Assembly (NCBI RefSeq): GCF_900636765.1
Contig: NZ_LR134313.1
Coordinates: 2,294,001-2,358,000 of the forward strand
Length of the DNA: 64,000 bases
Reading direction: 5' to 3'
Origin: Neisseria canis
GTDB lineage: Bacteria > Pseudomonadota > Gammaproteobacteria > Burkholderiales > Neisseriaceae
Shown: in pieces, positions 3,406-26,890 of the stretch
Position numbering within the stretch: position 1 is the stretch's first letter
Layout: each line of letters starts with the position of its first letter
Notes under the pieces: model-generated
The model's database searches: none
The model's input: only the letters and a program-made list of their open reading frames with translations
What the model was told of the DNA's origin: nothing
Program-made: the position numbers and the translations under genes

Positions 3406-3843
3406 TTAGGCTGCTTGAAAGCCGGGATGTTCCCTAACCGCTGCCAGCCAGCTATCCGGTGTTTGAAACTGCATCTCGCCGTTTTCAAGCGACACGGCCA
3501 CTTGGGTGGTGCTGGCTTTGGTAAGTTTAACGCCGCTTTCCAAATCCACAATCGTGTAATCAATGCGCAGGCAGCTTTCGATTTCCACCACCGCCAAATC
3601 CACGCGCACTTTTTGGCCGAACACCGCCGGCTTCACATATTTCAGATTGAGCTGCACCACCGGCCAGCTGTAACCCTGCCGCTTCATCTCATTGTAGTCA
3701 TAAGAGATTTCGCTTAAAAACGCGCACCTTGCCACTTCCAAATATTTCACATAATGCCCGTGCCATACAATATGCATGGCATCAACATCAAAAAACGGCA
3801 CCTCTATTTCCGTGCTGTGGCGGCAGTAAACATGTTTAGCCAT
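3406..3843 (-). CDS. Hotdog acyl-CoA/acyl-ACP thioesterase (4HBT/YbgC type)
   Basis: The 145-residue single hotdog domain carries the 4-hydroxybenzoyl-CoA thioesterase signature VPFFDVDAMHIVWHGHYVKY (residues about 15-34), with the acidic catalytic residue in the DVDAMHIVWH stretch. In APE clusters a thioesterase of this type (ApeK position) is thought to release or proofread acyl chains. Its start overlaps the end of the upstream acyltransferase gene by 8 bp, which indicates translational coupling. Confidence 0.82.
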   Translation of the reverse strand: MAKHVYCRHSTEIEVPFFDVDAMHIVWHGHYVKYLEVARCAFLSEISYDYNEMKRQGYSWPVVQLNLKYVKPAVFGQKVRVDLAVVEIESCLRIDYTIVDLESGVKLTKASTTQVAVSLENGEMQFQTPDSWLAAVREHPGFQAA

Positions 3844-4777
3844 GCGTTTCGTCTTTCCAAAAATCGTAAAAATTAAACCATTGCAGAGGGTTCAGCGCGC
3901 ATTCCTTCGCCAGTACATCGGCAAACTGCTGCGCCGCCGCGGCAACTTCCTCATTGCGTTTGCCGCGCTTCCAATCCGCCGTATCCAAAAAACGGCTCAG
4001 TTTTAGATGATAGCGCCCGTTTTGCTTGATGCAGCACAAAGTATTCACACGGGTTTTCAACAAAGCCGCCAGCAGCCACGCACCTTGCGGCATATCGGCT
4101 TGAGCGCCTAAAAAATCCACAGCCACCGTTTTTTCGCCGCGCACAGGCACACGGTCTGCCGCAATTGCCAGCCATTCTCCCGCATCAATCCGTTTGTTCA
4201 GCTCCATCATCAGCGAAGCATCCAGATCCGTTACCTGAATCAGCTGGATTTTATCCGCACCGGCCTTGTTTAAAGCCTCGTTAAACGCCTGGGCATGGCG
4301 GTTGTGTACCAACACATTAAGACAAAAGCCTTGATGATGCGAAACCAGCGCGCGGCACACTTCCACATTGCCCACATGCGAACACACAAAAATCTGCCCG
4401 CGCCGGCCGCGTTTATCGATTTCGGCATACACATCATCCGGGTCTTCCAACACCAAATCTTCATAACGGATTTTACGCTGCCACACCGCGAAACGGTCGC
4501 ATACCGCTTCGCCAAACGCCACAAACTGTCTGAATACCGGCCAAGTTTCGGGCAGCCGGGTCTGCGGAAAAGCCGCCCGCAAACGCGCCTGATAGCGCGC
4601 GATATTGCGCCGCTGCTTGGGTGCGGTGATATAAAAATACAACACCACAAACCAAATACACGGCTTCATCACAAATGCAGGCAGCCAACGCACCATCAAC
4701 GTGGTGAGCGCTAAAAACAGACGGTTACCGCGTTCATTTTGGGCGGCCCAATGTTCGGAGTTTCGGGTGTCGGTCAT
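3836..4777 (-). CDS. LpxL/HtrB-like acyltransferase of the APE cluster
   Basis: The 313-residue protein has an N-terminal hydrophobic anchor (about residues 22-52) and the late lipid A acyltransferase pattern: the CSHVGNVEV motif (HX4E catalytic dyad) near residue 132 and the downstream AADRVPVRGEKTVAVDFLG segment. In enterobacterial APE clusters this domain is fused to a glycosyltransferase (ApeJ); here the two are separate genes, with the GT2 gene 150 bp upstream. It probably acylates the sugar or lipid head group that anchors the polyene in the outer membrane. Confidence 0.78.
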   Translation of the reverse strand: MTDTRNSEHWAAQNERGNRLFLALTTLMVRWLPAFVMKPCIWFVVLYFYITAPKQRRNIARYQARLRAAFPQTRLPETWPVFRQFVAFGEAVCDRFAVWQRKIRYEDLVLEDPDDVYAEIDKRGRRGQIFVCSHVGNVEVCRALVSHHQGFCLNVLVHNRHAQAFNEALNKAGADKIQLIQVTDLDASLMMELNKRIDAGEWLAIAADRVPVRGEKTVAVDFLGAQADMPQGAWLLAALLKTRVNTLCCIKQNGRYHLKLSRFLDTADWKRGKRNEEVAAAAQQFADVLAKECALNPLQWFNFYDFWKDETHG

Positions 4778-4927
4778 GGTTTTCAGACAGGCATTTCAAT
4801 CAATTAATGAATCAACCGGCTTGTCATACTCAGGTCAGGCTTTGGCATGACGATACTTGTTTACTGAACAAATGATTAAGCTATCAGCATGCTGTCAGAC
4901 AGGCATAGTGCCGGCAAAAACAGATTA

Positions 4928-5656
4928 TCATTTTTTCCATTGGCCGCTCAAACGCTTATACACCATCTCGCAAAACAATCTTGCGTGCATTTTGCTGATC
5001 AGCACATTATCGTCAAACGCGCGGAAATGCGACACGCCGCCAGCTTCGTATTTCACCGGCGTTTTAATCCACACCGGTTTCACGCCGCGCCAATAGAGGC
5101 GGATAAGGATTTCCGTATCGAAATCCATGCGGTCGCCCACCCTTTCTTCACGCACCACGGCCAGCGCGGGCGCGAGCGGATAAAGGCGGAAACCGCACAT
5201 ACCGTCTTTTATATCGGTGGAAAACGTATTCACCATATTCCAAAAATCGGTAATTTTACGCCCGTAAAGCCGCGCTTTCGGCGCATCGCTGCCGTATTGA
5301 GGCCAGCCGCATATAACCGCTTCGGGGTGTTGCGACGCGGCAGCCAGCAACTTTTCCGTGTCGGCCAAACGGTGCTGCGCATCGGCATCCACCTGTAAAA
5401 CATGGGTGTAGCCCTGCCCTTCGGCGTACTTCAACCCCGCTTTTACCGCCGCGCCTTTACCGCCGTTGACCAAGCGGTACACAACGTGAATGCCTCCCTG
5501 CTCCGCCAAAGCGTCCAATACCGGTTTGCAGTCCGCCCGCGAACCGTCGTCCACAATCAGCACATCCAAACCAAACCCGCGCATGGCTTGGGCAACTTGG
5601 GTGATGGTGGTCGGGTGGTTGTAGTGGGGGATTAGGGCTAGGGTTTTCATAATCAT
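4928..5656 (-). CDS. Glycosyltransferase family 2
   Basis: The 242-residue GT-A protein has the nucleotide-sugar binding strand LDVLIVDDGS (about residues 29-38), the NGGKGAAVKAG loop, and the DVDADAQHR-like metal site at VDADAQH (about residue 92). It has no membrane anchor. It belongs to the dolichol-phosphate-mannose-synthase-like branch found in APE clusters and probably glycosylates the lipid anchor or polyene head. A pseudogenised MATE transporter lies just upstream. Canonical AT-DUS appears immediately 5-prime of it (5711-5722). Confidence 0.8.
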   Translation of the reverse strand: MIMKTLALIPHYNHPTTITQVAQAMRGFGLDVLIVDDGSRADCKPVLDALAEQGGIHVVYRLVNGGKGAAVKAGLKYAEGQGYTHVLQVDADAQHRLADTEKLLAAASQHPEAVICGWPQYGSDAPKARLYGRKITDFWNMVNTFSTDIKDGMCGFRLYPLAPALAVVREERVGDRMDFDTEILIRLYWRGVKPVWIKTPVKYEAGGVSHFRAFDDNVLISKMHARLFCEMVYKRLSGQWKK

Positions 5657-5766
5657 GTGTTATCAGTCATTTATCTACTTTAGGCCATCTGCGAATATCG
5701 ATGATTGTGTTTCAGACGGCATAAACTCACTTTTTTAAAGATACTATTACCCCTGCAAAAAGCAGA

Positions 5767-7076
5767 TTATCTAACCAAATCGGCAATGCGGATATTGTGG
5801 TTACGGAGCGTCTTCACATACAGCCAAACCGTCGGCAGCATATCGATGAGCATTCCCCCTCCGAAAATAAGCGAAATATTCAGCAAAGACATCTGCACAA
5901 CGCCTGCCTTATACAGAGCGAACACCACCCCATAATAAACCACATCTACAACAATAGATTGGTAAAGCATGTATCTGGTTACGCCCAGCCCTTTAATCGT
6001 TGAATCCAACACGCTGTAATTAAACATAAAAACAATATAAAAAGCCGTTTGAACCAACATAATTTCCAAAACGGTTTCGGCCTGGCCCACTTGTAAAACC
6101 TGTGTTAAAAAAGGCTTCCACAAAGGGATGGATACCAACCAAAGCAACACAAAACATACCGTGCATTTCAAATAAATCAGAGTATTCAAGCGCACGGCGT
6201 CTACGCTGTTGGCTACATCTCTTTTCACTACCTCGGCCAACGCCAGCGAAGGCACCAATAAAATGCCCCATATGATGTTGTTGGCCACCCAATAAGCCCC
6301 CTGCTCGCCAACTTGGTTTACCATACCGAGTATCATAAAAGCAAACGCCGCATTTCTAAGCAGGGATTCCAAACCCTAAAAAGAACCCAACCTCATCCAG
6401 TTTTTAAACCAATCCAAATCAAATCCCAGCCGGTTCGCTGCAAAAAATTGCCGAAAACGGCCGTGCGAGAGCACGAAAACGGCCAAAATCGAATTGATTA
6501 AGATATTGGATAACGCAATGCCTTTCACACCCAAAGCCAGCGAAAAAGGCATTTCCGAAATGAACAGAATATCCGTTCCAATGAGAAGAGCCATTTTCCA
6601 TAACGACAACTGGATTATGCACTTGAAATCTTTAATGATTGCCAGATACACAATCAAATATTCCACCACAACCGACAACAAAATAGCTATGGATTCCAAT
6701 TTGATATATGCCGCAGTATCGGCAATCAATTGCGGAGTTTGCTTTACGCCTGCAAGAAATTGCTCTGCAAAAAAGAAAACCGCAACGCATAAAACGGCAT
6801 GTATAAACGTTACCGCCATCAACCCGCCCGCCGTGTTTTGCAACAGCTTTTCTTCTCCTTCTTTCAGAGCCTTAGCCAACATGAAAAACAAAGGGATTAA
6901 AAAAGCTTCTTTTACAATTTCATACAGAATATTCAACCATTGAATTTGGCTGGCAATATAAACCCCCACTCGTCAGGCATGTTCCCGATAAAATGCAGCC
7001 TGATAATATTGACCAAAGAAGGAATGAAAAAGATCAGTAAAAATGCAAACCACAGTTTGAAATCAAAATTCTTCAC
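5767..7076 (-). pseudogene. Broken MATE-family transporter (frameshift plus internal stop)
   Basis: Reading from GTG at 7076, about 36 codons (KNFDFKLWFAFLLIFF...) lead to a run of five G (plus-strand C at 6963-6967). One extra G there would join this frame to the next one (WGVYIASQIQWLN) and on through eight hydrophobic segments. A TAG stop at 6376-6378 then interrupts, in frame, the sequence that continues from 6375 to 5767. A repaired protein would be about 436 residues with some 12 membrane helices, the usual size of multidrug/oligosaccharide-lipid exporters. It sits between the AMP ligase and GT2 genes, so it may once have flipped a polyene-lipid intermediate. Two lesions make sequencing error alone unlikely. 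Confidence 0.75.
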
Positions 7077-7081
7077 AGGTT

Positions 7082-8797
7082 TTACTCGTTAATCGCCCCA
7101 AACACAATCCGACCCGAAGCGCACACCGCTTCGTGATTTTCCAGCTTAAACGTCAGTTTGTTTTTATCCGCATCGTATTTCAACTCTGCAAACACTTCAT
7201 GATGCGGACGCAGGAATTGCTGGTATTTCAGGTTTTCCACGCGCACGACGCTTTGCCGACCCCAGTCGAAACGTTCGGCCAAATCGCGCACCCATTGCAG
7301 CTCGATCACGCCGGGCACCAGCGGGAAATTAGCGAAGTGTCCGCCGAAATACACCAAATCCAGCGGCACACGGCCTTGGAAGCGGTGGCTTTCTGCATTT
7401 TCAGACAGGCATGGCTGCCATTGCGGGGCGGTTTGCGCTTCGGTAAAGACCGTCTGAAAATCGGCGGCGGTGATTTTGGATTGGGCATTGCGCGGCAAGG
7501 CGTCGGTGAAACGCCAGTAGCGCGGTAAAGCCACTGTGTCTTGCGTGGCGGCAAGGTGTTTTTTCAACGCCGCCGCCACAGCCGCCCGCCCCTGCTCCTG
7601 TAAGGCTTGGATGCCGTCTGAATTCAACGCCGCCCACACGGCGGGGCGTTTGTGCTGCGGGTGCTGGGCGCAATAGGCATCGGCAATCCATTCGTGCGCC
7701 AACAGGTCGTGTTCGATTTGGTTTAATGACACGCGTTTGTCCTCAAATTTGATAATCCGGTCTTTCCGCCCGAGCAATAAAAAGCCTTCGGGCTGCATTT
7801 CCACCATATCGGCGGTTTGAAAGCGGCCGTTTGTCCACGGCGATTGCGCCCACAACGCGCCGTCCTCGTCCTGCCCGATTTCCACGGCAGCAAAAGGCTG
7901 CCATTCGCGGCGGTGGCGGCGGGACGCAATCACGCCGGTTTCGGTACTGCCGTAAATCTCAAAAGGCCGTACGGCATGTTTTTCGAGCAAATCGGCGGTT
8001 ACTTCTGGCAATGCACCGCCTGCCGACACAATCCCCGCCACTTTGCCGCCCACCGCCTGCCAGTTGCGCGCTTCGCCCAAACGGTTCAGCACCGCCGGGC
8101 TGGCAATCCAAACGCATTTTCCACAAGCTGCGGTGGCCGCCAACAGCGTTTCGGGGTACACATTTTGCAGACGCACCATCGTCCAACCCATCGTGAGCGC
8201 GAGCGCGAAACGGAAAGTAAATCCATACATATGCTGCGGGCTGACGCTGCCGATAACCGCCGGATGGTCGCGCCCGAAAGGAACAGCCTCTGCCAAAGCC
8301 AACGCTTCCGCTTCCATTTGAGCCGCCGTTTTCACAATCACCTGCGCCCCGCCGGTCGAGCCGGACGTTTTCAGACAGGCTTCGGCATCGGCAGGAATCA
8401 ACAGATTATCCGGCATCGTGATTTCAGACGGCATGTCGCTCAACATCGCGGGAATACTGTAAACCTTATCGGCATGAAGGCCGTCTGAAAACGCTTTTTC
8501 ATGAGGCGCATCCGTCAGCCACACATCCGCCGTGTTGCCCCAATCCACATTGTCCCGCGCCAAATTCGGCGGCAACAACACCTTCGCCCCCGCATGCCAC
8601 GCCGCCAGCACCGCGCAGGCAAAAAACGCGGCATCTTCAAACCACAAAGCGGCGGTTTGCACGTTCTGCGTTTTCAGACGGCCTGAAAGGCAGATAACGG
8701 CGCAGTTGAAATCGGCGCGAGTCCAATCGGGGTCGGTGGCGATTAAGGTGGTTTGCGGAAGGGTTGGGGATAGGATTTGAGAGAGGTTATATATCAT
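7082..8797 (-). CDS. Acyl-ACP/CoA ligase fused to a hotdog 3-hydroxyacyl-ACP dehydratase
   Basis: From ATG at 8797 the protein has about 571 residues. Residues 1-450 form an adenylating (ANL) domain with the P-loop TSGSTGG (144-150), the YGSTETG motif and the hinge GRKDRIIKFEDKRVSL. Residues about 465-571 form a FabA/FabZ-type hotdog with GHFANFPLVPGV. Elsewhere these are usually two genes (ApeH ligase loads the aryl starter on ACP; ApeI dehydrates). An in-frame upstream start at 8842 would overlap the preceding gene by 41 bp, so the start 4 bp after that gene's stop is preferred. The coding sequence contains several canonical DUS, unlike most of the window. Confidence 0.8.
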   Translation of the reverse strand: MIYNLSQILSPTLPQTTLIATDPDWTRADFNCAVICLSGRLKTQNVQTAALWFEDAAFFACAVLAAWHAGAKVLLPPNLARDNVDWGNTADVWLTDAPHEKAFSDGLHADKVYSIPAMLSDMPSEITMPDNLLIPADAEACLKTSGSTGGAQVIVKTAAQMEAEALALAEAVPFGRDHPAVIGSVSPQHMYGFTFRFALALTMGWTMVRLQNVYPETLLAATAACGKCVWIASPAVLNRLGEARNWQAVGGKVAGIVSAGGALPEVTADLLEKHAVRPFEIYGSTETGVIASRRHRREWQPFAAVEIGQDEDGALWAQSPWTNGRFQTADMVEMQPEGFLLLGRKDRIIKFEDKRVSLNQIEHDLLAHEWIADAYCAQHPQHKRPAVWAALNSDGIQALQEQGRAAVAAALKKHLAATQDTVALPRYWRFTDALPRNAQSKITAADFQTVFTEAQTAPQWQPCLSENAESHRFQGRVPLDLVYFGGHFANFPLVPGVIELQWVRDLAERFDWGRQSVVRVENLKYQQFLRPHHEVFAELKYDADKNKLTFKLENHEAVCASGRIVFGAINE

Positions 8798-8801
8798 GTA
8801 A

Positions 8802-9545
8802 CTAAACCGCCGTTTTTTTGCTTTCGTTATCAGAACCGTCATCCGATATGCTTTGAAAGATAACTGCGTACTTTTCTTGGTTAAGCCTTTTAAATACTTC
8901 TGAAATATTGTCCGGTATCATCATAAATGGAAAACATAGAAAACAAATTACACAACACCAAATAGGTAATAACTGAATACCATGTAATGTATAGTCAATA
9001 CCAAATGAAAAAATATACGGAACTGATAAACATATTAAGATGCTTACCATCATCAAGAACCCTATTATTTCAGGATTATCAAATCTTAATTTTTGCCTTT
9101 TCCGCCGCCAATAGCCGTGTTTTATTTTTTCATCTTCAAAAGAAGGATAAGTTTCTGCAAAAAACTTTTTCTTGTCATATTTTTTATCGTCGGCATTCCA
9201 CTTAATCGCTCCCAATCCCCTTACCATGCCGCCTTTTGCAAAAACAACATCTAATATTCCGTCCAAACCTATTTTCCGTTCCATTAAAAAGTCCAACTCT
9301 TCAACAGAAAGCTCTTTGAAATAAGGTATTTTTTTCTGCTCAAGCTGCCTGTTTAAATCATAAAAATATTGTTTTTTGCTATCTTGTTCGCGAAGATGGG
9401 CCGATTCATCCAAATATTTGAAAAAAGATTGTATTTTTACCAATTCCTCTTCTGTCGGTTCAAACTCCCCTTGAAAATATTTTTTAAGGTTTTTTCTATT
9501 CCAAAAGAAAAATATGCTTTTGAAAAAAGAAAGAATGATTTCCAC
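8802..9545 (-). CDS. Unrecognised AT-rich two-helix membrane protein
   Basis: I do not recognise this 247-residue protein. It is rich in Lys, Phe and Glu, with a charged N-terminal half (residues 15-165), two adjacent hydrophobic segments (about 166-185 and 192-212) and a polar C-terminus rich in Asp, Ser and Glu. Base composition is much more AT-rich than the flanking APE genes, which suggests separate acquisition. It lies between the ligase gene (4 bp spacing) and a Correia-type element, so it may share the operon transcript or be a passenger. Nothing in it points to a polyketide role. Confidence 0.6.
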   Translation of the reverse strand: MEIILSFFKSIFFFWNRKNLKKYFQGEFEPTEEELVKIQSFFKYLDESAHLREQDSKKQYFYDLNRQLEQKKIPYFKELSVEELDFLMERKIGLDGILDVVFAKGGMVRGLGAIKWNADDKKYDKKKFFAETYPSFEDEKIKHGYWRRKRQKLRFDNPEIIGFLMMVSILICLSVPYIFSFGIDYTLHGIQLLPIWCCVICFLCFPFMMIPDNISEVFKRLNQEKYAVIFQSISDDGSDNESKKTAV

Positions 9546-9601
9546 TAGTTTATCTCCCCTTAAATAACCAACACAAACAGATGCTTGCTTTCAGACGGCT
9601 C

Positions 9602-9764
9602 TATAATCAATCCACTTAACTTTTACTACGGCGTTGCTGCGCCTTAGCTCAAAGAGAACAAGATTGTGTAAGCCGCTGAAACAGCAACAGAATGGGTTCC
9701 GTACTACCACCTATACTGCCTGCGGTTTACTGCCTTGTATTAAAAATTAAACGGATTAACTATA
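9602..9764. mobile_element. Correia-type repeat enclosed element (CREE/MITE), copy 1
   Basis: About 163 bp resembling the Neisseria Correia element, with the internal block TTAGCTCAAAGAGAAC and the CTGCCTGCGG/CCTTGTAT region. The ends are degenerate forms of the inverted terminus (TATAATCAATCC left; GGATTAACTATA right). A second copy in the opposite orientation lies at 40243-40400. The flanking gap (9546-9832) holds nothing else apart from a canonical DUS at 9590-9599. Confidence 0.75.
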
Positions 9765-9832
9765 TATTCCACCCCAAACCGCCTATGCCAAACTATTACT
9801 TCAATATTCGGGTAAAGCCACGTTTGCAGCAA

Positions 9833-10060
9833 TTACTCCACCGACCACTCCACCAGCTTCAGCACCACGGGTCGCACCCCCAACAAGCTCACGAAAGCTA
9901 TCGGCCAAGTGATGATATAAGCCTTGATAAAGCGTGCAAAATAACCCGCATCTATACCGGTGTTCAATGCCACCAGCACACCGCTTACGATAAACACCAT
10001 AATGGCAGAAGCGTAGAAAGAAAATGCCAAACCTGCGTATTTTTTCGGTAATTTTTTCAT
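9833..10060 (-). CDS. DUF2798-family small membrane protein
   Basis: The 75-residue protein starts MKKLPKKYAG and has two membrane helices (about residues 10-32 and 45-65), with the conserved spacing and the FIVSGVLVALN and TWPIAFVSLLGVRP blocks of DUF2798. Function is unknown in the family. It follows the APE membrane protein gene in the same direction with an 84-bp gap containing an AG-DUS, and may be an insertion into the operon rather than a pathway member. Confidence 0.7.
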   Translation of the reverse strand: MKKLPKKYAGLAFSFYASAIMVFIVSGVLVALNTGIDAGYFARFIKAYIITWPIAFVSLLGVRPVVLKLVEWSVE

Positions 10061-10144
10061 CGTTGTTCCTTTTCTATTTTAATTTTCCATAGCATGTTAT
10101 CCGGATACCGGCCTGAAAACACAATCATCTTTTTTCAGACGGCC

Positions 10145-10684
10145 TCAAACTTTCAACACCGCTTTGCGGTACAGCCACTCGCCCGCAAACAACATCCCCA
10201 TCAAGATATACGAAACCATGCCGGTATAAACCGCCCACCAATCATACCGGCCGGAAAGTGCCAGCAGCCCGGAAAGGGTAGCGTTGAAAATAAAAAACAT
10301 GCACCAAATTTGCGTTACCCGGCGGGTATAGCGCACGCCTTCGGGCGGCAGATCGGGGTTTTGCAGGCGGGCGAGGCGTTCGATAAGGGTTTGTTTGGCA
10401 AAGAGGCTGGCACCGAACACGGCAAGCATCAGGAGGCTGACGGCAACGGGATACCAATACATGGAATCAGGCCGTCTGAAAACAATCACTACGGCAAAAA
10501 AAGCAGCCAGCAGCAGGGAAACGGCTTGCTGGGCACGGGTTTTCTGCATCGCGGCGCGTATCAGCCACAAGGCGCACATGGCGGCGGCAAGCCAGAAAAA
10601 TGCGCCGTGTTCGCGGCCGTAATACCACAGTAACGGATAAGCGATACTGAGTATGATAAGAAAAACTTGGCCGATGATTTTCAT
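10145..10684 (-). CDS. APE-cluster polytopic membrane protein (COG4648 type)
   Basis: The 179-residue protein is mostly hydrophobic, with about five to six helices and the central soluble stretch LARLQNPDLPPEGVRYTRRV between helices. This type occurs right after the two ACP genes in APE clusters (ApeG position), and the gene order here is the same. Its biochemical role is not established; a membrane scaffold for the assembly line is a guess. Two canonical AG-DUS lie at its ends (10134-10145 and 10469-10480). Confidence 0.7.
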   Translation of the reverse strand: MKIIGQVFLIILSIAYPLLWYYGREHGAFFWLAAAMCALWLIRAAMQKTRAQQAVSLLLAAFFAVVIVFRRPDSMYWYPVAVSLLMLAVFGASLFAKQTLIERLARLQNPDLPPEGVRYTRRVTQIWCMFFIFNATLSGLLALSGRYDWWAVYTGMVSYILMGMLFAGEWLYRKAVLKV

Positions 10685-10904
10685 AATGGGTTTGAAATGG
10701 ATATTTATTGATGAACCTACTTGTATGACAAAAGGTCATGCTTAATGTCATACTTGGTTTTATTCAAGCATGACAAATGTGTTTTTTGAATTGTGATGAA
10801 ATCGCACAAAGCAAGTTTTCAGACAGGCATATTTGCATCATCCGAACATAGCAAAACGGCGGACAAGGATGCCCGCCCTTCGGCTTTTAAATATCAAATG
10901 CGGC

Positions 10905-11150
10905 TTACTCGGCATCAATTCTTAACACAGCCTGCACCACATCATCGACGGTACGCACATTGCGGAAATCTTCGGCCTTAAGCTTGCGGCCGGTTTCGCG
11001 TTTGATATGGTCGATCAAATCAATGGCATCAATGCTGTCGATTTCCAAATCTTCGTAAAGATTGGTTTCAGGCTTGATGCGCTCGGGCTCAATTTCAAAC
11101 AGATTCACCAAAGCATCTGAGAGAATCCGACGGATTTCTTGTTCGGTCAT
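10905..11150 (-). CDS. Acyl carrier protein (second of two)
   Basis: The 81-residue acidic helical protein has the phosphopantetheine attachment motif EIDSIDAIDL with Ser39. It is one of a tandem ACP pair, as in other APE clusters (ApeE/ApeF), where one ACP carries the growing polyene. The Sfp-type transferase encoded at 15644 would activate it. It starts 11 bp after the stop of the first ACP gene. Confidence 0.88.
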   Translation of the reverse strand: MTEQEIRRILSDALVNLFEIEPERIKPETNLYEDLEIDSIDAIDLIDHIKRETGRKLKAEDFRNVRTVDDVVQAVLRIDAE

Positions 11151-11161
11151 AACGTACCCCT

Positions 11162-11419
11162 TTATGCTTGACGGCTGCGGACAAACTCGGCCAGTGTGGC
11201 TACGCTGGTGAAATGGTCGCGCAGATTGTCTTTTTCACCGTCGAGCTGGAAGCCGAAAGTTTTTTGCACAGCCAAACCCAACTCCAAAGCATCCACCGAA
11301 TCCAAACCCAATCCTTCGTCGCCAAACAGCGGCGCATCGGTTTCAATATCGTTAACGGTAATGTCTTCCAGACCTAAGCTGTCGATAATCATCTGTTTGA
11401 TTTGTGTTTCTAAATTCAT
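11162..11419 (-). CDS. Acyl carrier protein (first of two)
   Basis: The 85-residue protein has the modification motif LGLDSVDALEL with Ser41. The ATG at 11419 overlaps the TGA of the upstream acyltransferase gene in an ATGA arrangement and follows GAGAAA, so the longer in-frame extension to 11500 is rejected. It differs clearly from the neighbouring ACP in the loop before the serine (GDEGLGLDS against YEDLEIDS), which suggests distinct partners. Confidence 0.88.
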   Translation of the reverse strand: MNLETQIKQMIIDSLGLEDITVNDIETDAPLFGDEGLGLDSVDALELGLAVQKTFGFQLDGEKDNLRDHFTSVATLAEFVRSRQA

Positions 11420-12174
11420 ATTGTTTCTCGTGTGAAATAGTCTTGTAAATAAGCGTTTAAGCGCCGTGCGGCAATGGGTAAGGGGTTTTCGGCCAGCCAA
11501 TCTTGCGGATGGATGTCGTCGCCGACCGTAATTTCGTAATGGATGGTACGGGGTGGGATTTTATACCATGGCTGGCCTTTTTTAAAATTGGGCGGGTTCA
11601 TTTTAATGCACACAGGGGTAATCACTTCCGCACTACGCAAGCCGATGGATACGGCGCCGCGGTGGAGTTTGATTTCGCCGTCCCACCCTGTACGCGTGCC
11701 TTCGGGGAAAATCAGCATACTCTGCCCGCTTTTAAACACGGCATCCACTTCTTCCATCATTTCCAGCGATTCGTCGTTGGGAATATAACCCGTGGCGAGA
11801 ATCTGGCTTTTCATGGAAGGGTTTTTAAGCAGGTCTTTTTTAACGATACAGTTCATCTGCGGCACATGGCCGATCAACAATACCACATCCAGCAGCGACG
11901 GATGATTGGCTAATACCAATTGGCCTGGTCTGCCCAATTTTTCCAAGCCGTTGAAGCGTACACTCAACACGCCCGACCATACCAAATAGCCGACAAACCA
12001 CTTCCACACTCCGCCGATCAGCCGTCGCGCCTGCATTTGGCGTGGAATGTCATTTTTGGTGCTTTTCAGAGTGTAAGGCAGCAAAACGATTTTAAACAAC
12101 ACGCCCACCACGCCGAACAGCACAAAACCAAACAATGTTGCAAAAAAGCGGCGGTAATAATTCAATGACTTCAT
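11416..12174 (-). CDS. PlsC-like 1-acylglycerol-phosphate acyltransferase homologue of the APE cluster
   Basis: About 252 residues from ATG 12174, which overlaps the stop of the chain length factor gene (ATGA). An N-terminal membrane segment (about 10-33) is followed by the acyltransferase motifs NHPSLLD (HX4D) and FPEGTRTG, then a hydrophobic VITPVCIKM strand. In APE clusters this gene (ApeD position) precedes the ACPs, as here. It probably transfers the polyene acyl chain, or a fatty acyl chain, to a glycerol or lipid acceptor. Confidence 0.82.
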   Translation of the reverse strand: MKSLNYYRRFFATLFGFVLFGVVGVLFKIVLLPYTLKSTKNDIPRQMQARRLIGGVWKWFVGYLVWSGVLSVRFNGLEKLGRPGQLVLANHPSLLDVVLLIGHVPQMNCIVKKDLLKNPSMKSQILATGYIPNDESLEMMEEVDAVFKSGQSMLIFPEGTRTGWDGEIKLHRGAVSIGLRSAEVITPVCIKMNPPNFKKGQPWYKIPPRTIHYEITVGDDIHPQDWLAENPLPIAARRLNAYLQDYFTRETI

Positions 12175-12917
12175 AAAGTTTTCTGCCAAAACCAGCGACG
12201 TTGGTCGTAATATCTGGTTTCTTCATGCCTGTCTGAAAGCATGAAACGTATCCAATCAAGCGCGCCCCAATAAGGTGAGTTTTCTTCGGCTTGTTCACCG
12301 CAAGACAAAGACAAGCGGTATTGCTGCCCCGGTTGCAACACCATCGCAAGCGCATAGGGCATAGGCGCGCGTTCTGCTTCGAGCGCATATTCTTCTACCA
12401 ACGGATCATCCGCCAATACCAGCAGCACTTTGTCTCCACCGTCCTGCATCAGCGCATACGCTTCGGCCAAAGCCGTTTCCAAACCGTCGCTGCCCACCGC
12501 CAAAGCGGTGTTTTCACGCATATCTTTACGCAACATCGACCACTGACCCACTTGCGCATTGTGCACGGACAAGCCGAATGATGTGGGCGATACTGTATGG
12601 GTTTTCATCAATTCAAGCCACAGCTCGAAGCTGCGGTTTAATTCGCCGTCGTGCGAGGCAAACACCAAAGCGCTTTCAGGATACTGTTCGGCCAGGTTCC
12701 ACGCCGCATCACACACCAAGCGCGCAGCTTTGCCCAAGCGCCGCCGCTGCATGGCAGGCAAAAAAGCCAGCTCGGGTTTATAATCAGGCTGGCTTTCGAA
12801 AAAAGAAGCGTTTGCCGACCATTGCCGCCAAGCGTCATGCCCTGCCAAACGGCTGGAGGATGCCTGCCATTCGACAATATCAAAAGAAAAACTGCAATGG
12901 GAAGGAGCGGTCATCAT
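12171..12917 (-). CDS. Ketosynthase-like chain length factor of the APE cluster
   Basis: The 248-residue protein matches the short ketosynthase-like family annotated as beta-ketoacyl synthase chain length factor (Ketoacyl-synt_2). It retains the thiolase N-half core (ALVFASHDGELNRSFELWLEL, then SVHNAQVGQWSM) but lacks the nucleophilic cysteine, consistent with a non-catalytic partner (ApeC position) of the active ketosynthase encoded at 14332. It heads the leftward operon and is divergent from the dehydratase gene. A TG-wadDUS lies inside the coding sequence near its 3-prime end. Confidence 0.8.
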   Translation of the reverse strand: MMTAPSHCSFSFDIVEWQASSSRLAGHDAWRQWSANASFFESQPDYKPELAFLPAMQRRRLGKAARLVCDAAWNLAEQYPESALVFASHDGELNRSFELWLELMKTHTVSPTSFGLSVHNAQVGQWSMLRKDMRENTALAVGSDGLETALAEAYALMQDGGDKVLLVLADDPLVEEYALEAERAPMPYALAMVLQPGQQYRLSLSCGEQAEENSPYWGALDWIRFMLSDRHEETRYYDQRRWFWQKTL

Positions 12918-13609: not shown

Positions 13610-14338
13610 ATGAGCGAAACCATTTTAATCACCGGCTCAAACCGAGGCATCGGCAAAGCAATTGCTTTGGGCTTGGCGCAAGACGGCTACGACATTGTAG
13701 TCCATTGCCGCAGCCGCCGCGAAGAAGCGGAAACCGTGGCCGAATCCGTGCGCGCTTTGGGCAGACGGGCCAGAGTTTTGCAGTTTGACGTTTCCGACCG
13801 AAGCCAATGCCGTGAAGCGCTTGCAGCCGATATTGAAGCACACGGTGCTTATTACGGTGTGGTGCTCAATGCCGGTTTAACGCGCGACAACGCTTTTCCG
13901 GCTTTTGAAGACGAAGACTGGGATCAGGTTCTGCGTACCAATTTGGATGGTTTTTATAATGTACTGCATCCGCTCGTAATGCCGATGATACGCCGCCGCA
14001 AAGCGGGGCGTATTGTGTGTATGGCTTCCGTGTCCGGTATCACGGGCAACCGCGGCCAGGTCAATTACAGCGCTTCCAAAGCCGGTATTATCGGTGCGGC
14101 CAAAGCTCTGGCGGTGGAGCTCGCCAAGCGGAAAATCACGGTCAACTGCGTGGCTCCCGGTCTGATTGATACGGAAATTGTGGATGAAAACGTGCCGGTG
14201 GAAGAGATTTTAAAAGCCGTACCTGCCGCACGCATGGGTTCGCCGGAAGAAGTGGCGCATGCCGTTCGGTTTTTGATGGATGAGAAAGCAGCGTATATCA
14301 CGCGGCAGGTTATTGCAGTAAACGGAGGTTTGTGTTGA
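13610..14338 (+). CDS. 3-oxoacyl-ACP reductase (FabG-like ketoreductase)
   Basis: The 242-residue short-chain dehydrogenase has the cofactor motif TGSNRGIG (residues 8-15), the NAG motif near 87-89 and the catalytic Ser142, Tyr153 and Lys157 (YSASK). Cofactor preference is probably NADPH, as in FabG. It lies in the APE rightward arm (ApeQ position), is preceded by AAGGAAA, and its stop overlaps the start of the ketosynthase gene. It reduces the beta-keto intermediate in each elongation cycle. Confidence 0.87.
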   Translation: MSETILITGSNRGIGKAIALGLAQDGYDIVVHCRSRREEAETVAESVRALGRRARVLQFDVSDRSQCREALAADIEAHGAYYGVVLNAGLTRDNAFPAFEDEDWDQVLRTNLDGFYNVLHPLVMPMIRRRKAGRIVCMASVSGITGNRGQVNYSASKAGIIGAAKALAVELAKRKITVNCVAPGLIDTEIVDENVPVEEILKAVPAARMGSPEEVAHAVRFLMDEKAAYITRQVIAVNGGLC

Positions 14339-15561
14339 GACGGGTTGTCGTTACAGGCGTCGGTGGGATTACCGCATTCGGGCGCGATTGGAAAAGCATT
14401 CAGACAGGCTTTCTAAAAGGTAAAAACGCCGTAAAAAGCATGGATTGGTCGGAGCAGTTTCCCGAGTTGGAAGCGCGCTTGGGTGCGATAGTGGAAAACT
14501 ACCAACCGCCCGCCCACTGGACGCGCAAACAGCTGCGCAGCATGGGGCGCGGTACGCAAATGGCGGTTGATGCCGCCGAACAGGCTTTGGCCGATGCCGG
14601 ACTTTTGGGCGACGAGCGTATCAAAGACGGCCGCATGGGCGTGGCCGGAGGCTCATCGGTGGGTAGCACCAAAGACACCGGCGTGATGGGCGATTTGGTA
14701 TTGCACGGCAACTCGCGCAATTTCAACGCCAACACCTATGTGCGCATGATGCCGCACACCGTTCCGGCCAATGTCGGTATCTTCTTCGGACTTACCGGGC
14801 GCCTCATTCCCACCTCCAGCGCCTGCTCCTCCAGCAGCCAGGCCATAGGTTATTCTTACGAAGCCATCAAATACGGCCTGATAGACATGATGCTCAGCGG
14901 CGGCAGCGAAGAATTCTGTCCATCCGAAGTGTATGTATTCGATTCACTCTATGCCGCCAGCCGCCGCAGCCACGAACCCGAACTCACCCCCCGCCCCTAC
15001 GACAGCGGTCGCGACGGCCTCGTTATCGGCGAAGGCGGATGCTTTTTGGTGCTGGAAGAATTGGAACATGCGCGCGCGCGCGGTGCAAAAATCTATGCCG
15101 AAATCGTGGGTTACGGCGCCAACAGCGACGGCAGCCATATTACCCAGCCGCAAAAAGCCACCATGCAGCGCTGCATGGAAATGGCCTTGAAAGACGCCGG
15201 CATTCGGCCGGGCCAAATCGGCTATGTGAACGGGCACGGCACAGCTACCGAAAAAGGAGACATCGCCGAAACTTTGGCCACGGAAGCCGTTTTCGGACAT
15301 GTGCCCATGAGTTCGCAAAAAAGCTATTTCGGCCACACACTCGGCGCCTGCGGGTCTTTGGAATCTTGGTTTTCCATTGAAATGATGAACAGCAGCTGGT
15401 TTGCGCCCACCGTCAATCTGGACAATATCGACCCGCTTTGCGGCAAAGTGGACTATATCCGCGGCGAAGGGCGTGAAATCAGAACCGACTATGTGATGAA
15501 CAACAACTTCGCCTTCGGCGGCGTGAACACCTCACTGATATTCAAACGCTGGCAGGAATAA
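14332..15561 (+). CDS. Beta-ketoacyl-ACP synthase (FabF-like, APE elongating ketosynthase)
   Basis: The 409-residue ketosynthase has the full triad: Cys165 (TSSACSSSSQ), His302 (NGHGTATEKGD) and His335 with Lys330 (KSYFGHTLGAC). The start is GTG at 14332 (or TTG at 14335), inside the end of the ketoreductase gene and just after GGAGGT. It should pair with the cysteine-less chain length factor encoded at 12171 (the ApeO/ApeC partnership). A paired-DUS terminator follows. Confidence 0.87.
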   Translation: MLRRVVVTGVGGITAFGRDWKSIQTGFLKGKNAVKSMDWSEQFPELEARLGAIVENYQPPAHWTRKQLRSMGRGTQMAVDAAEQALADAGLLGDERIKDGRMGVAGGSSVGSTKDTGVMGDLVLHGNSRNFNANTYVRMMPHTVPANVGIFFGLTGRLIPTSSACSSSSQAIGYSYEAIKYGLIDMMLSGGSEEFCPSEVYVFDSLYAASRRSHEPELTPRPYDSGRDGLVIGEGGCFLVLEELEHARARGAKIYAEIVGYGANSDGSHITQPQKATMQRCMEMALKDAGIRPGQIGYVNGHGTATEKGDIAETLATEAVFGHVPMSSQKSYFGHTLGACGSLESWFSIEMMNSSWFAPTVNLDNIDPLCGKVDYIRGEGREIRTDYVMNNNFAFGGVNTSLIFKRWQE

Positions 15562-15577: not shown

Positions 15578-15610
15578 AATGCCTGTCTGAAACTTTTTCA
15601 GACAGGCATT
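15578..15610. terminator. Paired-DUS terminator between convergent genes
   Basis: Inverted TG-wadDUS copies (AATGCCTGTCTGAAA and its complement) with a 2-3 base loop lie between the convergent ketosynthase and phosphopantetheinyl transferase genes. It can work in both directions. Confidence 0.8.
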
Positions 15611-15643
15611 GTTTATAGCCAAACCCAAACCGAACATCTCCGC

Positions 15644-16258
15644 TCAATCATAGCTGCCCACGTTTACCGCCTCCGCTTCAAAGCCACCTTCCATGCGCAG
15701 CTCCAGCGCCCCTTCTCCGCGCCAAACACAAGCCAACATAAAATCACGGCCGATTTTATAAGTGACACCCCGCCAGCCGCCGCAGCCTTGCACATGCAAA
15801 CCCGTTTTGCCGCCGGTACCGGGTTGCCGGCCCACCGCTTTCATTGCTTCGGGAAAACCCAAGCCGCCCGCCTTAAGCAGCGCCTCTTTCAGCGTCCACA
15901 ATTCATAGAAATCATCGGCTTGCCATCCGCGCGCCGCCAATTCTATCTGCTCGTAAGGCTGCGCCACCCATTCGGCTAACAACGCGAAATCCCTCGGGCG
16001 GATATATTCAATATCCACACCCACTGCCAAACCTGCACCGCCGCACAACACCGCCGCCATGCCGTTGCTGTGCGACAAAGACCGCACCGGCGAAGCCGCC
16101 CGCTGTTTCAAATAGCGGCTCACCCGCCAATCCGCCCGCTGCGCCAATTCAGGCCGCGCCTGCAATCTGAGCGTATCCTGTTTATCCAACAAATCAGGGC
16201 GGTATAAATCTGCACAGCGCCCGTCGGCCAGCAGGCAGCATAATGGTGTGTACGGCAT
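15644..16258 (-). CDS. 4-prime-phosphopantetheinyl transferase (Sfp type)
   Basis: The 204-residue protein has the two Mg/CoA motifs VGVDIE (79-84) and WTLKEALLKA (121-130). It would convert the two cluster ACPs to holo form using CoA. It is transcribed toward the ketosynthase gene from the right boundary of the APE cluster. It carries no N-terminal extension, so it is shorter than Sfp and close to the HetI-like group. Its location with the polyketide genes points to a dedicated activating enzyme rather than AcpS. Confidence 0.85.
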   Translation of the reverse strand: MPYTPLCCLLADGRCADLYRPDLLDKQDTLRLQARPELAQRADWRVSRYLKQRAASPVRSLSHSNGMAAVLCGGAGLAVGVDIEYIRPRDFALLAEWVAQPYEQIELAARGWQADDFYELWTLKEALLKAGGLGFPEAMKAVGRQPGTGGKTGLHVQGCGGWRGVTYKIGRDFMLACVWRGEGALELRMEGGFEAEAVNVGSYD

Positions 16259-16367
16259 AACTCATCAATATCGGCTATGGTTAGAATAGACACCCGCCCG
16301 GCCAAGTGGCTTCAGACAGGCATTTCCATTATACTTTGCCTCTCCGAACCGATACACCTTTGCCGCC

Positions 16368-17420
16368 ATGAACGAAGCCGCACCCAAACGCAGCAGCACG
16401 GAAAATACGCCCAAACACGCCGTGCACCAAACGCTTTACAGCCCCAAAGAATGCGCCACCCGCGACCTGATCCTAAGCAACGGCAACCTGCCGGAACACA
16501 CGGCGCTTATTCCCCACGGCCCGGATTCGGAGCACATCAACTGGCTGCATTTCGTCGGCGTTAACGATGGCGCCACGCTCAAAACCCTGCTTGCGCCCTA
16601 CGGCATTCACGAGCTGGTCATCGAAGACTTGCTCAACCGCAACCAGCGCCCCAAAGCAGAGGATTACGACAACTACCTCTTTATCGCCACCCGCGTGTTC
16701 CAATACGGCGGCAGCAAGCTCGTTTCAGACCCGGTGTACCTGATTATCGGGCACAATTTCGTCCTCACCTTCCAGCAGCGCCCGCTCGGGCTGCTCAGCA
16801 GCATCCGCAAACACATTGTCGACAACCGCACCGGCCTGCGCGACAAAAGCCCCGTTTTCCTCTCCTATACCTTCATCGACCGCCTGGTCGACGATTATTT
16901 CATCACCCTCGATCATTTCAATAACCGCGTGGAGGCGATTGACAAAAACCTGTTTGCCAACACCGGTAGCAACACCACCGATCTGCTGCCGAAAATCCAC
17001 CGTCTCAAGCGCGACGCCGTGCGCCTGCGCCGCACGCTTTCACCCATGCGCGACATGATGGTTCAGCTTTTACGCGGCGATTTTCCCATTTTCCACAACG
17101 AAGCCCATATCTACCTGCGCGACGCCTACGACCACCTGCTCCAGCTTTCCGAATCGCTCGATGCCTCGCGCGATTCCGTGCAGAGCATGATGGACGTGCA
17201 TTTGTCTTACCAGTCCAACCGGCTCAACATGCAGATGCGCGTGCTCACCGTGATTACCATCATTTTCATGCCGCTCACCCTGATTACCGGCATCTACGGC
17301 ATGAATTTCGACAACATGCCCGAGCTACATTGGCGCTACGGATATTATATGGTCTGGCTGGCCATGATCTGCATCGTGTCGGCCCTGCTTATTTATTTCC
17401 ACCGCCGCAAGTGGATTTAA
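16368..17420 (+). CDS. corA: CorA-family magnesium/divalent cation transporter
   Basis: The 350-residue protein has a long soluble N-terminal domain, a helical stalk and two C-terminal membrane segments separated by the periplasmic selectivity motif YGMNF (near residue 307). The end HRRKWI is positively charged, as in the family. CorA pentamers import Mg2+ across the inner membrane. It stands alone, followed by a single DUS at 17424-17437. Confidence 0.88.
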   Translation: MNEAAPKRSSTENTPKHAVHQTLYSPKECATRDLILSNGNLPEHTALIPHGPDSEHINWLHFVGVNDGATLKTLLAPYGIHELVIEDLLNRNQRPKAEDYDNYLFIATRVFQYGGSKLVSDPVYLIIGHNFVLTFQQRPLGLLSSIRKHIVDNRTGLRDKSPVFLSYTFIDRLVDDYFITLDHFNNRVEAIDKNLFANTGSNTTDLLPKIHRLKRDAVRLRRTLSPMRDMMVQLLRGDFPIFHNEAHIYLRDAYDHLLQLSESLDASRDSVQSMMDVHLSYQSNRLNMQMRVLTVITIIFMPLTLITGIYGMNFDNMPELHWRYGYYMVWLAMICIVSALLIYFHRRKWI

Positions 17421-17477
17421 CCCGATGCCTGTCTGAAAACGATTTTCCGCAACCTCAAACAATCAAAAGAGAACAAT

Positions 17478-17969
17478 ATGAACGACAATCAAAACCTTCC
17501 TCAATCAGAGCTTCAAATGTCCGTTTTAATGACGCCAGACATGGCCAACTTCAGCGGCAACGTACACGGCGGCGACCTGCTCAAACTGCTCGACCAAGTT
17601 GCCTACGCCTGCGCCAGCCGTTACAGCGGCCACTACTGCGTTACCCTCTCTGTGGACAAAGTTACCTTTAAAGAGCCGATTCATGTGGGCGAACTCGTTA
17701 CCTTTCTTGCCAGCGTCAACCATGTCGGCCGCACCTCGATGGAAGTCGGTATCCGCGTAGAAGCGCAAAACATCCGCGAACGCACCGTGCGCCACACCAA
17801 CAGCTGCTATTTCACCATGGTTGCCGTTGACAACGGCAAGCCGGTAGCCGTGCCGCCGCTGCAAATTACCAACGAACGCCAGCAATGCCGCTTTGAAGCC
17901 GCAGAAGCCCGCAAACGCATTCGTCTGCAAGAAAGCAGCCAACCCAGCTGCCACGAGTGCGAAGAATAA
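17478..17969 (+). CDS. Acyl-CoA thioesterase (YciA/ACOT hotdog family)
   Basis: The 163-residue hotdog protein has the family block MANFSGNVHGGDLLKLLDQVAY with the catalytic Asn/His-Gly-Gly and Asp. A Cys/Glu-rich tail (SCHECEE) follows. Members hydrolyse medium- and long-chain acyl-CoAs in the cytoplasm. It is separate from the APE thioesterase at 3406 and probably housekeeping. A paired-DUS terminator lies just downstream. Confidence 0.85.
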   Translation: MNDNQNLPQSELQMSVLMTPDMANFSGNVHGGDLLKLLDQVAYACASRYSGHYCVTLSVDKVTFKEPIHVGELVTFLASVNHVGRTSMEVGIRVEAQNIRERTVRHTNSCYFTMVAVDNGKPVAVPPLQITNERQQCRFEAAEARKRIRLQESSQPSCHECEE

Positions 17970-17973
17970 AACC

Positions 17974-18014
17974 ATGCCTGTCTGAAAAGCATTCCCCGCT
18001 TTTTCAGACAGGCA
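17974..18014. terminator. Paired-DUS terminator
   Basis: Inverted TG-wadDUS copies extended by AAAGC/GCTTT around a short loop follow the thioesterase gene and precede the riboflavin synthase gene. Confidence 0.75.
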
Positions 18015-18046
18015 TTCCTACAATTTTTCATTTAGAAAGCAAAACC

Positions 18047-18655
18047 ATGTTTACAGGTATCGTTCAAGGCACCGGCACCATCATCGCAGTCGACAGCCCC
18101 TCGGAAGACTTCCGCACGCTTACCGTCGAGCTGCCCGGGCACATGGCAGACAATCTGCAAACCGGCGCATCCGTTGCCAACAACGGCTGCTGCCTTACCA
18201 TTACCCACATCAACGGCAGACAAGTCAAGTTCGACCTGATGGCCGAAACCCTCAGGAAAACCAATCTCGGCGAACTCGAAGCGGGCGATGCCGTAAACCT
18301 CGAACGCGCCGCCCGCTTCGGCGACGAAATCGGCGGCCACTTGATGAGCGGCCACATCAGCGCCGTTACCCGCATCACCCGCATAGAAGAAAGCCCACAC
18401 AACAAAACCGTGTGGTTCGCCCTCCCCCACGCGCTCAAACCCTACATCCTGCCCAAAGGCTTCGCCGGCTTAGACGGTTGCAGCCTGACCATAGGCGAAG
18501 TAACCGGTGAGGAATTCAACGTCCACCTCATCCCCGAAACCTTGCGGCTCACCTTATTCGGCATCAAACAAGCAGGCGACAGCGTCAATATCGAAATTGA
18601 CCCGCAAACCCAAGCCATCGTCGATACGGTTACACGCATACTGGCCAAACCCTGA
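18047..18655 (+). CDS. ribE: Riboflavin synthase, alpha chain
   Basis: About 202 residues from the ATG at 18047, giving the invariant N-terminus MFTGIVQGTG. Two tandem lumazine-binding domains are visible (about 1-97 and 98-195), with internal repeats such as GxxVANNGCCLT and GLDGCSLTIGE. The enzyme dismutates two 6,7-dimethyl-8-ribityllumazines into riboflavin. An in-frame extension to 17957 crosses the DUS hairpin and is rejected. No FMN riboswitch-like structure is evident upstream. Confidence 0.92.
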   Translation: MFTGIVQGTGTIIAVDSPSEDFRTLTVELPGHMADNLQTGASVANNGCCLTITHINGRQVKFDLMAETLRKTNLGELEAGDAVNLERAARFGDEIGGHLMSGHISAVTRITRIEESPHNKTVWFALPHALKPYILPKGFAGLDGCSLTIGEVTGEEFNVHLIPETLRLTLFGIKQAGDSVNIEIDPQTQAIVDTVTRILAKP

Positions 18656-18693
18656 AAATATTTTCAGACAGGCATATTAAACATCCGCCACAT

Positions 18694-18737
18694 AAACCAT
18701 GCCTGTCTGAAAGCTACTGTTCAGACAGGCATGGTTT
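18694..18737. terminator. Extended paired-DUS terminator
   Basis: AAACCATGCCTGTCTGAA and its near-perfect complement flank a loop of 7 bases, between the convergent riboflavin synthase and panC genes. Another DUS precedes it at 18662-18674. Confidence 0.8.
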
Positions 18738-18756
18738 CATCCAATCGCAAAACGGT

Positions 18757-19590: not shown

Positions 19591-19606
19591 AAATGCTTAT
19601 CCTTGT

Positions 19607-20401: not shown

Positions 20402-20481
20402 AAGTATCAGAAGCTTCAAAAACATTAAACGCTGCCTATATTAAGGCACATGATGGGATTTCAAGGTTTTGCGCACAAGCA

Positions 20482-20514
20482 AATGCCTGTCTGAACCGTT
20501 TTCAGACAGGCATT
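20482..20514. terminator. Paired-DUS terminator
   Basis: Inverted AATGCCTGTCTGAA copies lie between the small gene ending at 20532 and the panB start, and end the leftward YqjDE-like operon. Confidence 0.75.
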
Positions 20515-20531
20515 CCAATCAAAACTCGGGC

Positions 20532-20798: not shown

Positions 20799-20815
20799 GT
20801 GTCTGCTCCTCCCTG

Positions 20816-21208: not shown

Positions 21209-21273
21209 AGGCTTCGCCTTTCTAAATTAAACACGGAAACCGCCGGAAAGGCCCGGCGGTTTGACGATATGAA

Positions 21274-21585: not shown

Positions 21586-21763
21586 TGTGTTTTCCTTTCC
21601 AAGTTAAATTACCTGCAAAATGGCAAGCAACATTTTCTACATAAGTCTATTTTCAGATATTTCAAGAAAATATTCGATAAATTTAACGGATATGGAAATT
21701 TTAAGGTCGGCCCGATAAAGCAAAAAGTAAGTTCGTTTGCTCTATTTTAAACTGCCCCCCGAT

Positions 21764-21805: not shown

Positions 21806-21813
21806 TGGCCGGA

Positions 21814-23532: not shown

Positions 23533-23552
23533 AAATTTTCCTTTCTTCTTTT

Positions 23553-26875: not shown

Positions 26876-26890
26876 TTCAAATAATTTCTT

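Follow-up and report, generated by a model that had tools for sequence, protein, structure and literature searches.

The window analysed here is a stretch of 64,000 bases (positions 2294001-2358000 of the single 2,569,389-bp contig of Neisseria canis) that contains an aryl polyene (APE) gene cluster. One part of this cluster, running from a glycosyltransferase (GT) gene through a ligase/dehydratase fusion gene to a gene for a COG4648-type membrane protein, is quite probably a site of recurrent exchange between Neisseria with different dialects of the DNA uptake sequence (DUS), and it holds two variable cargo slots. The GT gene with a MATE-type transporter gene, the 5' part of the ligase gene and an orphan gene are best explained by homologous recombination between N. 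canis, a species of the wad dialect, and a canonical-dialect Neisseria near N. animaloris. Identity to N. animaloris switches sharply inside the ligase gene (96-99% vs 80-82%), as in an interspecies mosaic, and parts of this one locus give supported, conflicting trees. The features of the locus are as follows.

3836..4777 (-), LPLAT acyltransferase; wad-type left flank by tree
4928..5656 (-), family 2 glycosyltransferase (PF00535)
4944..7190, N. animaloris-like block 1: GT gene, intergenic DUS, MATE gene, 3' end of the ligase gene
5711..5720 (-), canonical AT-DUS, intergenic; among nine genomes common to N. animaloris only, the other eight not aligned
5767..7059 (-), MATE-type efflux transporter gene, broken; cargo of slot A; NF045539 on both pieces
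7082..8842 (-), fusion of an APE AMP-ligase and an ApeI-like dehydratase (PF00501, PF22818); mosaic gene
7200..8000 (-), middle part of the ligase gene, not N. animaloris-like by identity profile and tree
8150..9608, N. animaloris-like block 2: 5' part of the ligase gene and orphan
8802..9545 (-), orphan protein of 247 aa; cargo of slot B; no Pfam or NCBIfam match
9590..9599 (-), canonical 10-mer, in none of the nine genomes compared; one mismatch in N. animaloris, the other eight not aligned
9609..10130, stretch without counterpart in the profiled loci save short pieces; contains the DUF2798 gene
9833-10060 (-), DUF2798 gene (PF11391)
10145..10684 (-), COG4648-type membrane protein; groups with N. 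zoodegmatis, N. wadsworthii and Neisseria sp. 83E34
10905..12189 (-), two acyl carrier proteins (ACPs) and an acyltransferase; wad/N. zoodegmatis group
13610..15561 (+), ketoreductase (KR) and ketosynthase (KS); wad-type right flank

The gene set of an aryl polyene cluster is present, namely, KS, KR, ACPs, AMP-ligase with ApeI-like dehydratase, acyltransferases and COG4648. Profile matches were obtained with PF00501, PF22818, PF13723, PRK09116 and FabG-type models. The labels ACP, LolA, thioesterase and COG4648 are putative and follow an earlier note on this DNA and general background.

Mosaic structure and cargo slots of the locus

The ligase gene was matched in 38 of the 46 genomes of the genus set (N. 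canis included), two of the matches being weak, and the locus was fetched from 20 of the 35 others with a full match. Identity was profiled in 200-bp steps against nine genomes, one genome per species. Handles denote genomes where needed (G000, N. canis; G002, N. animaloris; G025, 83E34; G040, N. wadsworthii; G045, N. zoodegmatis; G011, N. dentiae; G007, N. chenwenguii). Block 1 (~4944-7190) was 93-100% identical to N. animaloris in these steps, save for 90% in 5300-5499. N. zoodegmatis was equally close in the GT part (95%), and the steps between 5600 and 6999 aligned to none of the nine profiled genomes except N. animaloris. In the middle of the ligase gene, identity to N. animaloris was 80-82% over 7200-7599 and 88-96% over 7500-8099; 83E34, N. 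wadsworthii and N. zoodegmatis reached 92-96% throughout 7200-8000. Identity to N. animaloris was 91-93% around 8000-8300 and then 94-100% to about 9608. Over block 2 (~8150-9608) it amounted to about 93-100%, with 91 bp (9137-9228) missing in N. animaloris. The profiled flanks (4600-4799 and 10100-12100) were 70-83% identical to N. animaloris and 80-92% to 83E34 and N. wadsworthii, and the left-flank genes for LPLAT, thioesterase and nitroreductase were 79-82% identical to N. animaloris.

Trees of 12-21 rows were built with paired support values, and pairing with N. animaloris or with the wad clade was examined with approximately unbiased (AU) tests. In the LPLAT tree, N. canis grouped with 83E34 and N. 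wadsworthii (100/99) and pairing with N. animaloris was rejected (p-AU 7e-6). The same group was found for KR-KS (100/100) in a tree without N. animaloris and N. zoodegmatis rows. The 5' part of the ligase gene (8180-8745) grouped with N. animaloris (100/98), the wad clade being rejected with p-AU 5e-51. The middle part (7230-7990) fell into a group of 83E34, N. wadsworthii and N. zoodegmatis with support of 95/96, and the p for a wad clade of three was 0.345. The nearest relatives in the GT tree were N. zoodegmatis and N. animaloris (89/90). COG4648 was placed in one group with N. zoodegmatis, N. wadsworthii and 83E34 (support 98/98); N. animaloris as its partner was rejected (p-AU 6e-7), the wad clade of three was not (p 0.28). 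ACP-AT2 fell into the wad/N. zoodegmatis group (99/97) and pairing with N. animaloris was rejected as well (p-AU 3e-40).

The earlier note had proposed one segment, 5711..10480, imported together with COG4648 from a Neisseria of the AT/AG dialect. Recombination of this kind is the best explanation for the N. animaloris-like parts, namely, the GT/MATE block, the ligase 5' part and the orphan, but not for the ligase middle or COG4648, though the canonical N. zoodegmatis lies in the group of the latter. The limits have to be replaced by those of the two blocks. Its suggested comparison of the segment with the flanks gave a different tree for the 5' part of the ligase gene and nearly the same one for COG4648. 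A single import of the 4.77-kb DUS island was thus rejected, as its limits, the ligase middle and COG4648 disagree with it in profile and trees.

Slot A lies between the GT and the ligase gene, slot B between the ligase and the COG4648 gene, and their contents differ by genome. The MATE gene is common to N. canis and N. animaloris, with 99% nucleotide identity, and was not found in the other 19 of the 20 loci compared. It is broken in N. canis, its frame being disturbed near the 5' end and interrupted by an internal stop. The N. animaloris counterpart is an open frame of 436 aa with 519.6 bits on NF045539 (cut-off 350). Neither the MATE pieces nor this open copy matched in Pfam, whereas NCBIfam matched. 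The orphan has no known domain (Pfam, NCBIfam) and, itself counted, matched five of 5.8 billion proteins, one of which is named N. animaloris. Among the 20 loci, N. animaloris alone has a close copy, and weaker relatives occur in slot B of G029 and G003. Elsewhere, the slots contain a Fic-domain protein (tested in 83E34; frames of N. zoodegmatis and N. wadsworthii match in the first residues), a protein that is lipoprotein-like by eye (G024), DUF2846 (G013) or a FlxJ-family methyltransferase (tested in G018, with frames of similar appearance seen in G007, G004 and G021). They are nearly empty in some genomes.

Two further observations concern the slots. Slot A of the wad genome G028 has 32% G+C and contains a DUF4238 protein (L037:8212-9255). 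The DUF2798 gene at 9833-10060 in the orphan slot of N. canis has 188 relatives, of which 120 were listed, most of them without a name; the named ones among those listed belong to Cardiobacterium, Cardiobacteriaceae and Comamonadaceae only, not to Neisseria.

Uptake sequences in the locus and in the genome

The canonical 10-mer GCCGTCTGAA was found in nine exact copies in the window (5711-, 7613+, 8423-, 8480+, 8673-, 9590-, 10134-, 10471+ and 29803+, with strands). The expectation from 100 shuffles was 0.06 and the largest shuffle count was 1. Eight of the nine lie within 5711-10480, as the earlier note had stated. Its description of them as AT- and AG-DUS is correct for seven (three AT-DUS, four AG-DUS), but not for 9590, a GA variant. 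The ninth site sits in the ORF 29325-30125, which looks like an IS3-type transposase when judged by eye. TG-wadDUS occurs 54 times as an exact 12-mer in the window; one copy (7400) falls in the segment, as does a wad-like AGCCTGTCTGAA at 8370. The segment is therefore of mixed dialect and not purely foreign: the local excess of other-dialect DUS expected of a DUS-dialect island was observed, the absence of native DUS was not. The ligase gene itself carries four canonical and two wad-type sites.

The states of the sites were compared as 12-mers in nine genomes drawn from the 20 loci. The identical 12-mer was present in four of the nine at 7613, five at 8423, eight at 8480, seven at 8673, six at 10134 and five at 10471. 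At 5711 it was present in N. animaloris only and at 9590 in none, with eight genomes unaligned at each. The wad sisters 83E34 and N. wadsworthii have six and four, respectively, of the former six sites. Since six of the eight canonical sites are common to wad sisters, the DUS sites alone neither delimit nor date the import, and they are not the private mark of it that they had been taken for. Foreign DUS and acquired DNA do not coincide either, as 7613, 10134 and 10471 lie outside both N. animaloris-like blocks in the limits given above. At the wad-type positions 7400 and 12226, N. animaloris and G027 read AGGCCGTCTGAA; the dialect thus differs at the same place.

The whole contig contains 481 copies of the canonical GCCGTCTGAA and 2,349 of the wad GCCTGTCTGAA, which confirms the wad dialect that had been assigned to the host genome. 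Five of the 46 genomes are of this dialect, namely, N. canis, 83E34, N. wadsworthii 9715, G028 and G029, with 1,871-2,375 wad and 48-481 canonical sites each. From N. canis, 400 kb taken evenly, 160 kb chosen for islands and the window were sampled. The 20 evenly spaced 20-kb stretches contained 120 canonical and 327 wad sites. When these stretches were divided into 5-kb bins, 47 of 80 had no canonical site and 17 had at least four, and the variance/mean ratio was 3.39 for canonical vs 1.48 for wad sites. Canonical sites are clumped, and the APE island is therefore one of many canonical-DUS islands in the genome. The view of canonical DUS as rare in N. canis was rejected accordingly; of the frequency throughout the genome that the earlier note had named as a counter-argument, half is found, as the 481 sites are many but lie in islands. 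The Poisson p of 5e-6 for eight sites in 4.77 kb (rate from the genome count) is nominal, given the clumping of the sites and the choice of the segment after the fact.

Canonical DUS occur at the locus in four of the five wad genomes, with 11 sites per 20-kb locus in 83E34, 10 in N. wadsworthii, 16 in G028 and none in G029. A 6-kb block of the N. wadsworthii locus (8-14 kb) is 92-95% identical to N. zoodegmatis, compared to 70-83% on either side, and has nine of the ten canonical sites of the locus and seven wad sites. The first 11 kb of the G028 locus are 93-98% identical to the canonical genomes G010 and G011 where aligned (one 1-kb bin is unaligned) and contain 16 canonical and four wad sites; beyond, wad sites alone were found.

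Other islands were compared with the same species. An N. canis stretch at 778.7-786.3 kb (L073:10712-18263) with aconitase and citrate-synthase family genes shares 97% identity with N. zoodegmatis along 7,552 bp. This identity begins 5 bp before the first canonical site, and the wad sisters are 89-90% identical where aligned, with many of the same canonical sites. Island L089 consists of long pieces with 94-96% identity to N. wadsworthii and shorter ones with 94-96% to N. zoodegmatis and N. animaloris, while its last 4.6 kb are 81% identical to both of these. In stretch L081 with its 12 canonical sites, pieces of 92-97% identity to N. animaloris and N. zoodegmatis lie among others of 71-87%. 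The values for these two species were 69-82% in stretch L079, which has no canonical sites, and 65-85% in window positions 15601-35600, with one such site. Six stretches were pooled (103,200 bases), 26,873 bases (26%) of which reach at least 90% identity with N. animaloris or N. zoodegmatis. This DNA contained 42 of the 54 canonical and 10 of the 98 wad sites, and the canonical density was 1.56 per kb vs 0.16 per kb elsewhere.

The most canonical DUS among the fetched stretches (26 in 20 kb) were counted in L093, which belongs with L094 and L074 to the region at 852-930 kb of N. canis. Type VI secretion genes (TssF, VipB, VgrG-like and a ClpB/ClpV-like ATPase, by Pfam) are located there, together with long repeated frames that are Rhs-like by eye and repeated mixed-dialect hairpins.

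Receptor, route and competing explanations

ComP_DUS matches were obtained in all 12 genomes searched. Both strong, adjacent ComP_DUS pilins of N. canis group with those of 83E34 and N. wadsworthii (4- and 3-row sets, 96/100 and 97/95). By this grouping, the receptor of the recipient is most likely of the wad kind; a receptor change as the cause of the islands was rejected on the same grounds. G007 has four equal-scoring ComP_DUS copies and six matches in all, compared to two to three in the other 11 genomes searched.

For the direction, route, order and number of events we infer the following. Wad- and canonical-dialect Neisseria would swap DNA repeatedly in the stretch from GT through ligase/dehydratase to COG4648, the conserved genes acting as homology arms and slots A and B between them changing by species. 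The newest layer in N. canis would come from a lineage near N. animaloris and would have replaced or inserted GT/MATE and the ligase-5'/orphan part. An older layer beneath, common to N. wadsworthii, 83E34 and N. zoodegmatis, would contain the majority of the canonical DUS. The DNA probably entered by natural transformation via a wad-type ComP and then replaced homologous sequence in patches. Canonical DNA may enter through mismatched DUS at a low uptake rate or through wad sites in the donor stretch, one of which is present in the N. animaloris ligase gene and one in the N. zoodegmatis island. The proposed direction is based on the DUS at 5711, the open MATE frame of N. animaloris and the sisters without cargo.

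Several points weigh against recurrent exchange with an N. animaloris-like donor. A third species could have fed both N. canis and N. animaloris. The AU p-values are nominal, the groups having been named after the identity profile was known. Pairing with N. animaloris was not rejected for the ligase middle (p 0.066). For GT, the wad clade was not rejected (p 0.154) and the exclusive pair with N. animaloris was (p 0.007). The left flank is not uniformly distant, as lolA further left is 89% identical to N. animaloris at the nucleotide level and 88% to both wad sisters. Six of the eight canonical sites predate the split from the sisters or were gained repeatedly and do not date the import. The 6-kb block of N. 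wadsworthii is also 85-94% identical to 83E34 and thus not private. 'Recurrent' refers to four of five wad genomes at this one locus. The Fisher test on the pooled stretches (odds 31, p 3e-17) is nominal, because five of the six were picked with their canonical content known, and eight of the 21 canonical sites of L089 lie outside the segments of at least 90% identity. Finally, the first pilin of the wad genome G028 is placed outside the wad group.

An extension of recurrent exchange would be that such loci act as bilingual trade ports: an exchanged locus bears both dialects and could be bound by both ComP types, so that re-exchange would become likelier and the barrier would be broken at fixed places. 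This is doubtful. Copies in canonical species do carry wad sites in the common stretches (the N. animaloris ligase gene, the N. zoodegmatis citrate-synthase/aconitase island and two sites in N. animaloris opposite L081). Of the 39 wad sites of N. animaloris, four exchanged segments with a total length of about 39 kb contain 15; if the segment chosen for its wad sites is set aside, 5 of 29 remain, in about 19 kb of 2,339 kb. These data also fit simple two-way exchange in which no feedback acts.

A further sign is given by inverted DUS pairs whose two arms differ in dialect, one being canonical and the other wad; in the arrangement searched, N. canis has 22 of them. Such mixed-arm hairpins number 12 in N. 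wadsworthii, 11 in 83E34, seven in N. zoodegmatis and five in N. animaloris, and 36 of the 46 genomes have none or one. The hairpin at L073:15236-15261 has mixed arms in N. zoodegmatis, N. wadsworthii and 83E34 as well.

It is unlikely that the blocks reached N. animaloris from a relative of N. canis or that both species obtained them from an unsampled one. Two-way exchange does seem to occur: N. animaloris, N. zoodegmatis, N. chenwenguii, G010, N. dentiae, G027 and G041, all canonical, have 39-121 wad sites each, compared to 0-19 in the 34 other non-wad genomes. A wad cluster of N. animaloris at 77-97 kb matches the canonical-rich N. canis stretch at 622-652 kb with 90-98% in pieces, and N. 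zoodegmatis with 97% over 9.8 kb. The comparison moreover includes one genome per species. However, the MATE gene is open in N. animaloris and broken in N. canis, neither of the two nearest sisters has the cargo and the intergenic site at 5711 is of the N. animaloris dialect.

Somewhat less likely still, the canonical sites could be relics from before the wad dialect, never converted in genes where a one-base insertion would shift the frame. The wadDUS corresponds to AT-DUS with a T insertion, according to extracts of Frye 2013 (PMC3630211). The presence of six of the eight sites in wad sisters, and of the 8480 site in genomes of both dialects, would suit this idea. So would the unpaired single sites in the even sample and the window (87 of 129 canonical vs 127 of 387 wad), as expected if canonical sites are mostly intragenic. 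Relics do not predict, however, that identity to canonical genomes rises in canonical-rich stretches, as between N. wadsworthii and N. zoodegmatis. Neither can they account for the MATE/orphan block, and the sites cluster instead of being spread over genes.

Insertion by a mobile element, that is, an integrative and conjugative element (ICE), a prophage or an insertion sequence, is extremely improbable and was rejected: although ICEs have been found via a deviating DUS dialect (Hughes-Games 2020, PMC7371117, in extracts), the block limits here lie in or beside conserved genes, gene order is conserved as in relatives, and no integrase, relaxase, transposase or transfer gene is among the profiled genes of 4900-10700.

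Relation to known exchange in Neisseria

Stretches of foreign dialect are known as signs of interspecies transfer (Frye 2013, PMC3630211; Hughes-Games 2020, PMC7371117; both in extracts). The N. canis aryl polyene mosaic is a new case of this known cross-species exchange. In the available text of Frye 2013, the folP island of N. subflava ATCC 19243 is likewise a stretch of several kb with DUS of another dialect (seven mucDUS and one AG-DUS, the mucDUS positions being present in N. sicca). That island is a fragment which the other N. subflava genome lacks, whereas N. canis has a patchwork replacement in a conserved biosynthetic cluster, of which its sister species bear their own exchanged versions. 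The genomic islands and ICEs in the available text of Hughes-Games 2020 resemble our case in being acquired DNA found via deviating DUS; they differ in reaching up to 36 kb with transfer genes, while a few kb were swapped by homology in N. canis. The mosaic alleles of mtr and penA, which arose by interspecies transformation according to the sources at hand, are similar homologous patchworks between species. Unlike these, the N. canis exchange spans two DUS dialects and involves non-homologous cargo, which is swapped between arms that are conserved. The terms wadDUS and wadsworthii do not occur in the main text of Hughes-Games 2020, nor does wadDUS in PMC12061091. A literature search, mostly of titles, gave no title that deals with exchange of the aryl polyene cluster across dialects or with variable slots in it.

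The abstract of Frye 2013 describes DUS dialects as efficient barriers between species. The several hundred canonical sites in a wad genome, which are concentrated and, in the compared stretches, lie in N. animaloris- or N. zoodegmatis-like DNA, suggest that this barrier leaks. A mark that is common to sister species neither dates nor delimits an import, for which identity profiles and trees are needed. Together with these, dialect marks can help to map introgression between dialect groups.

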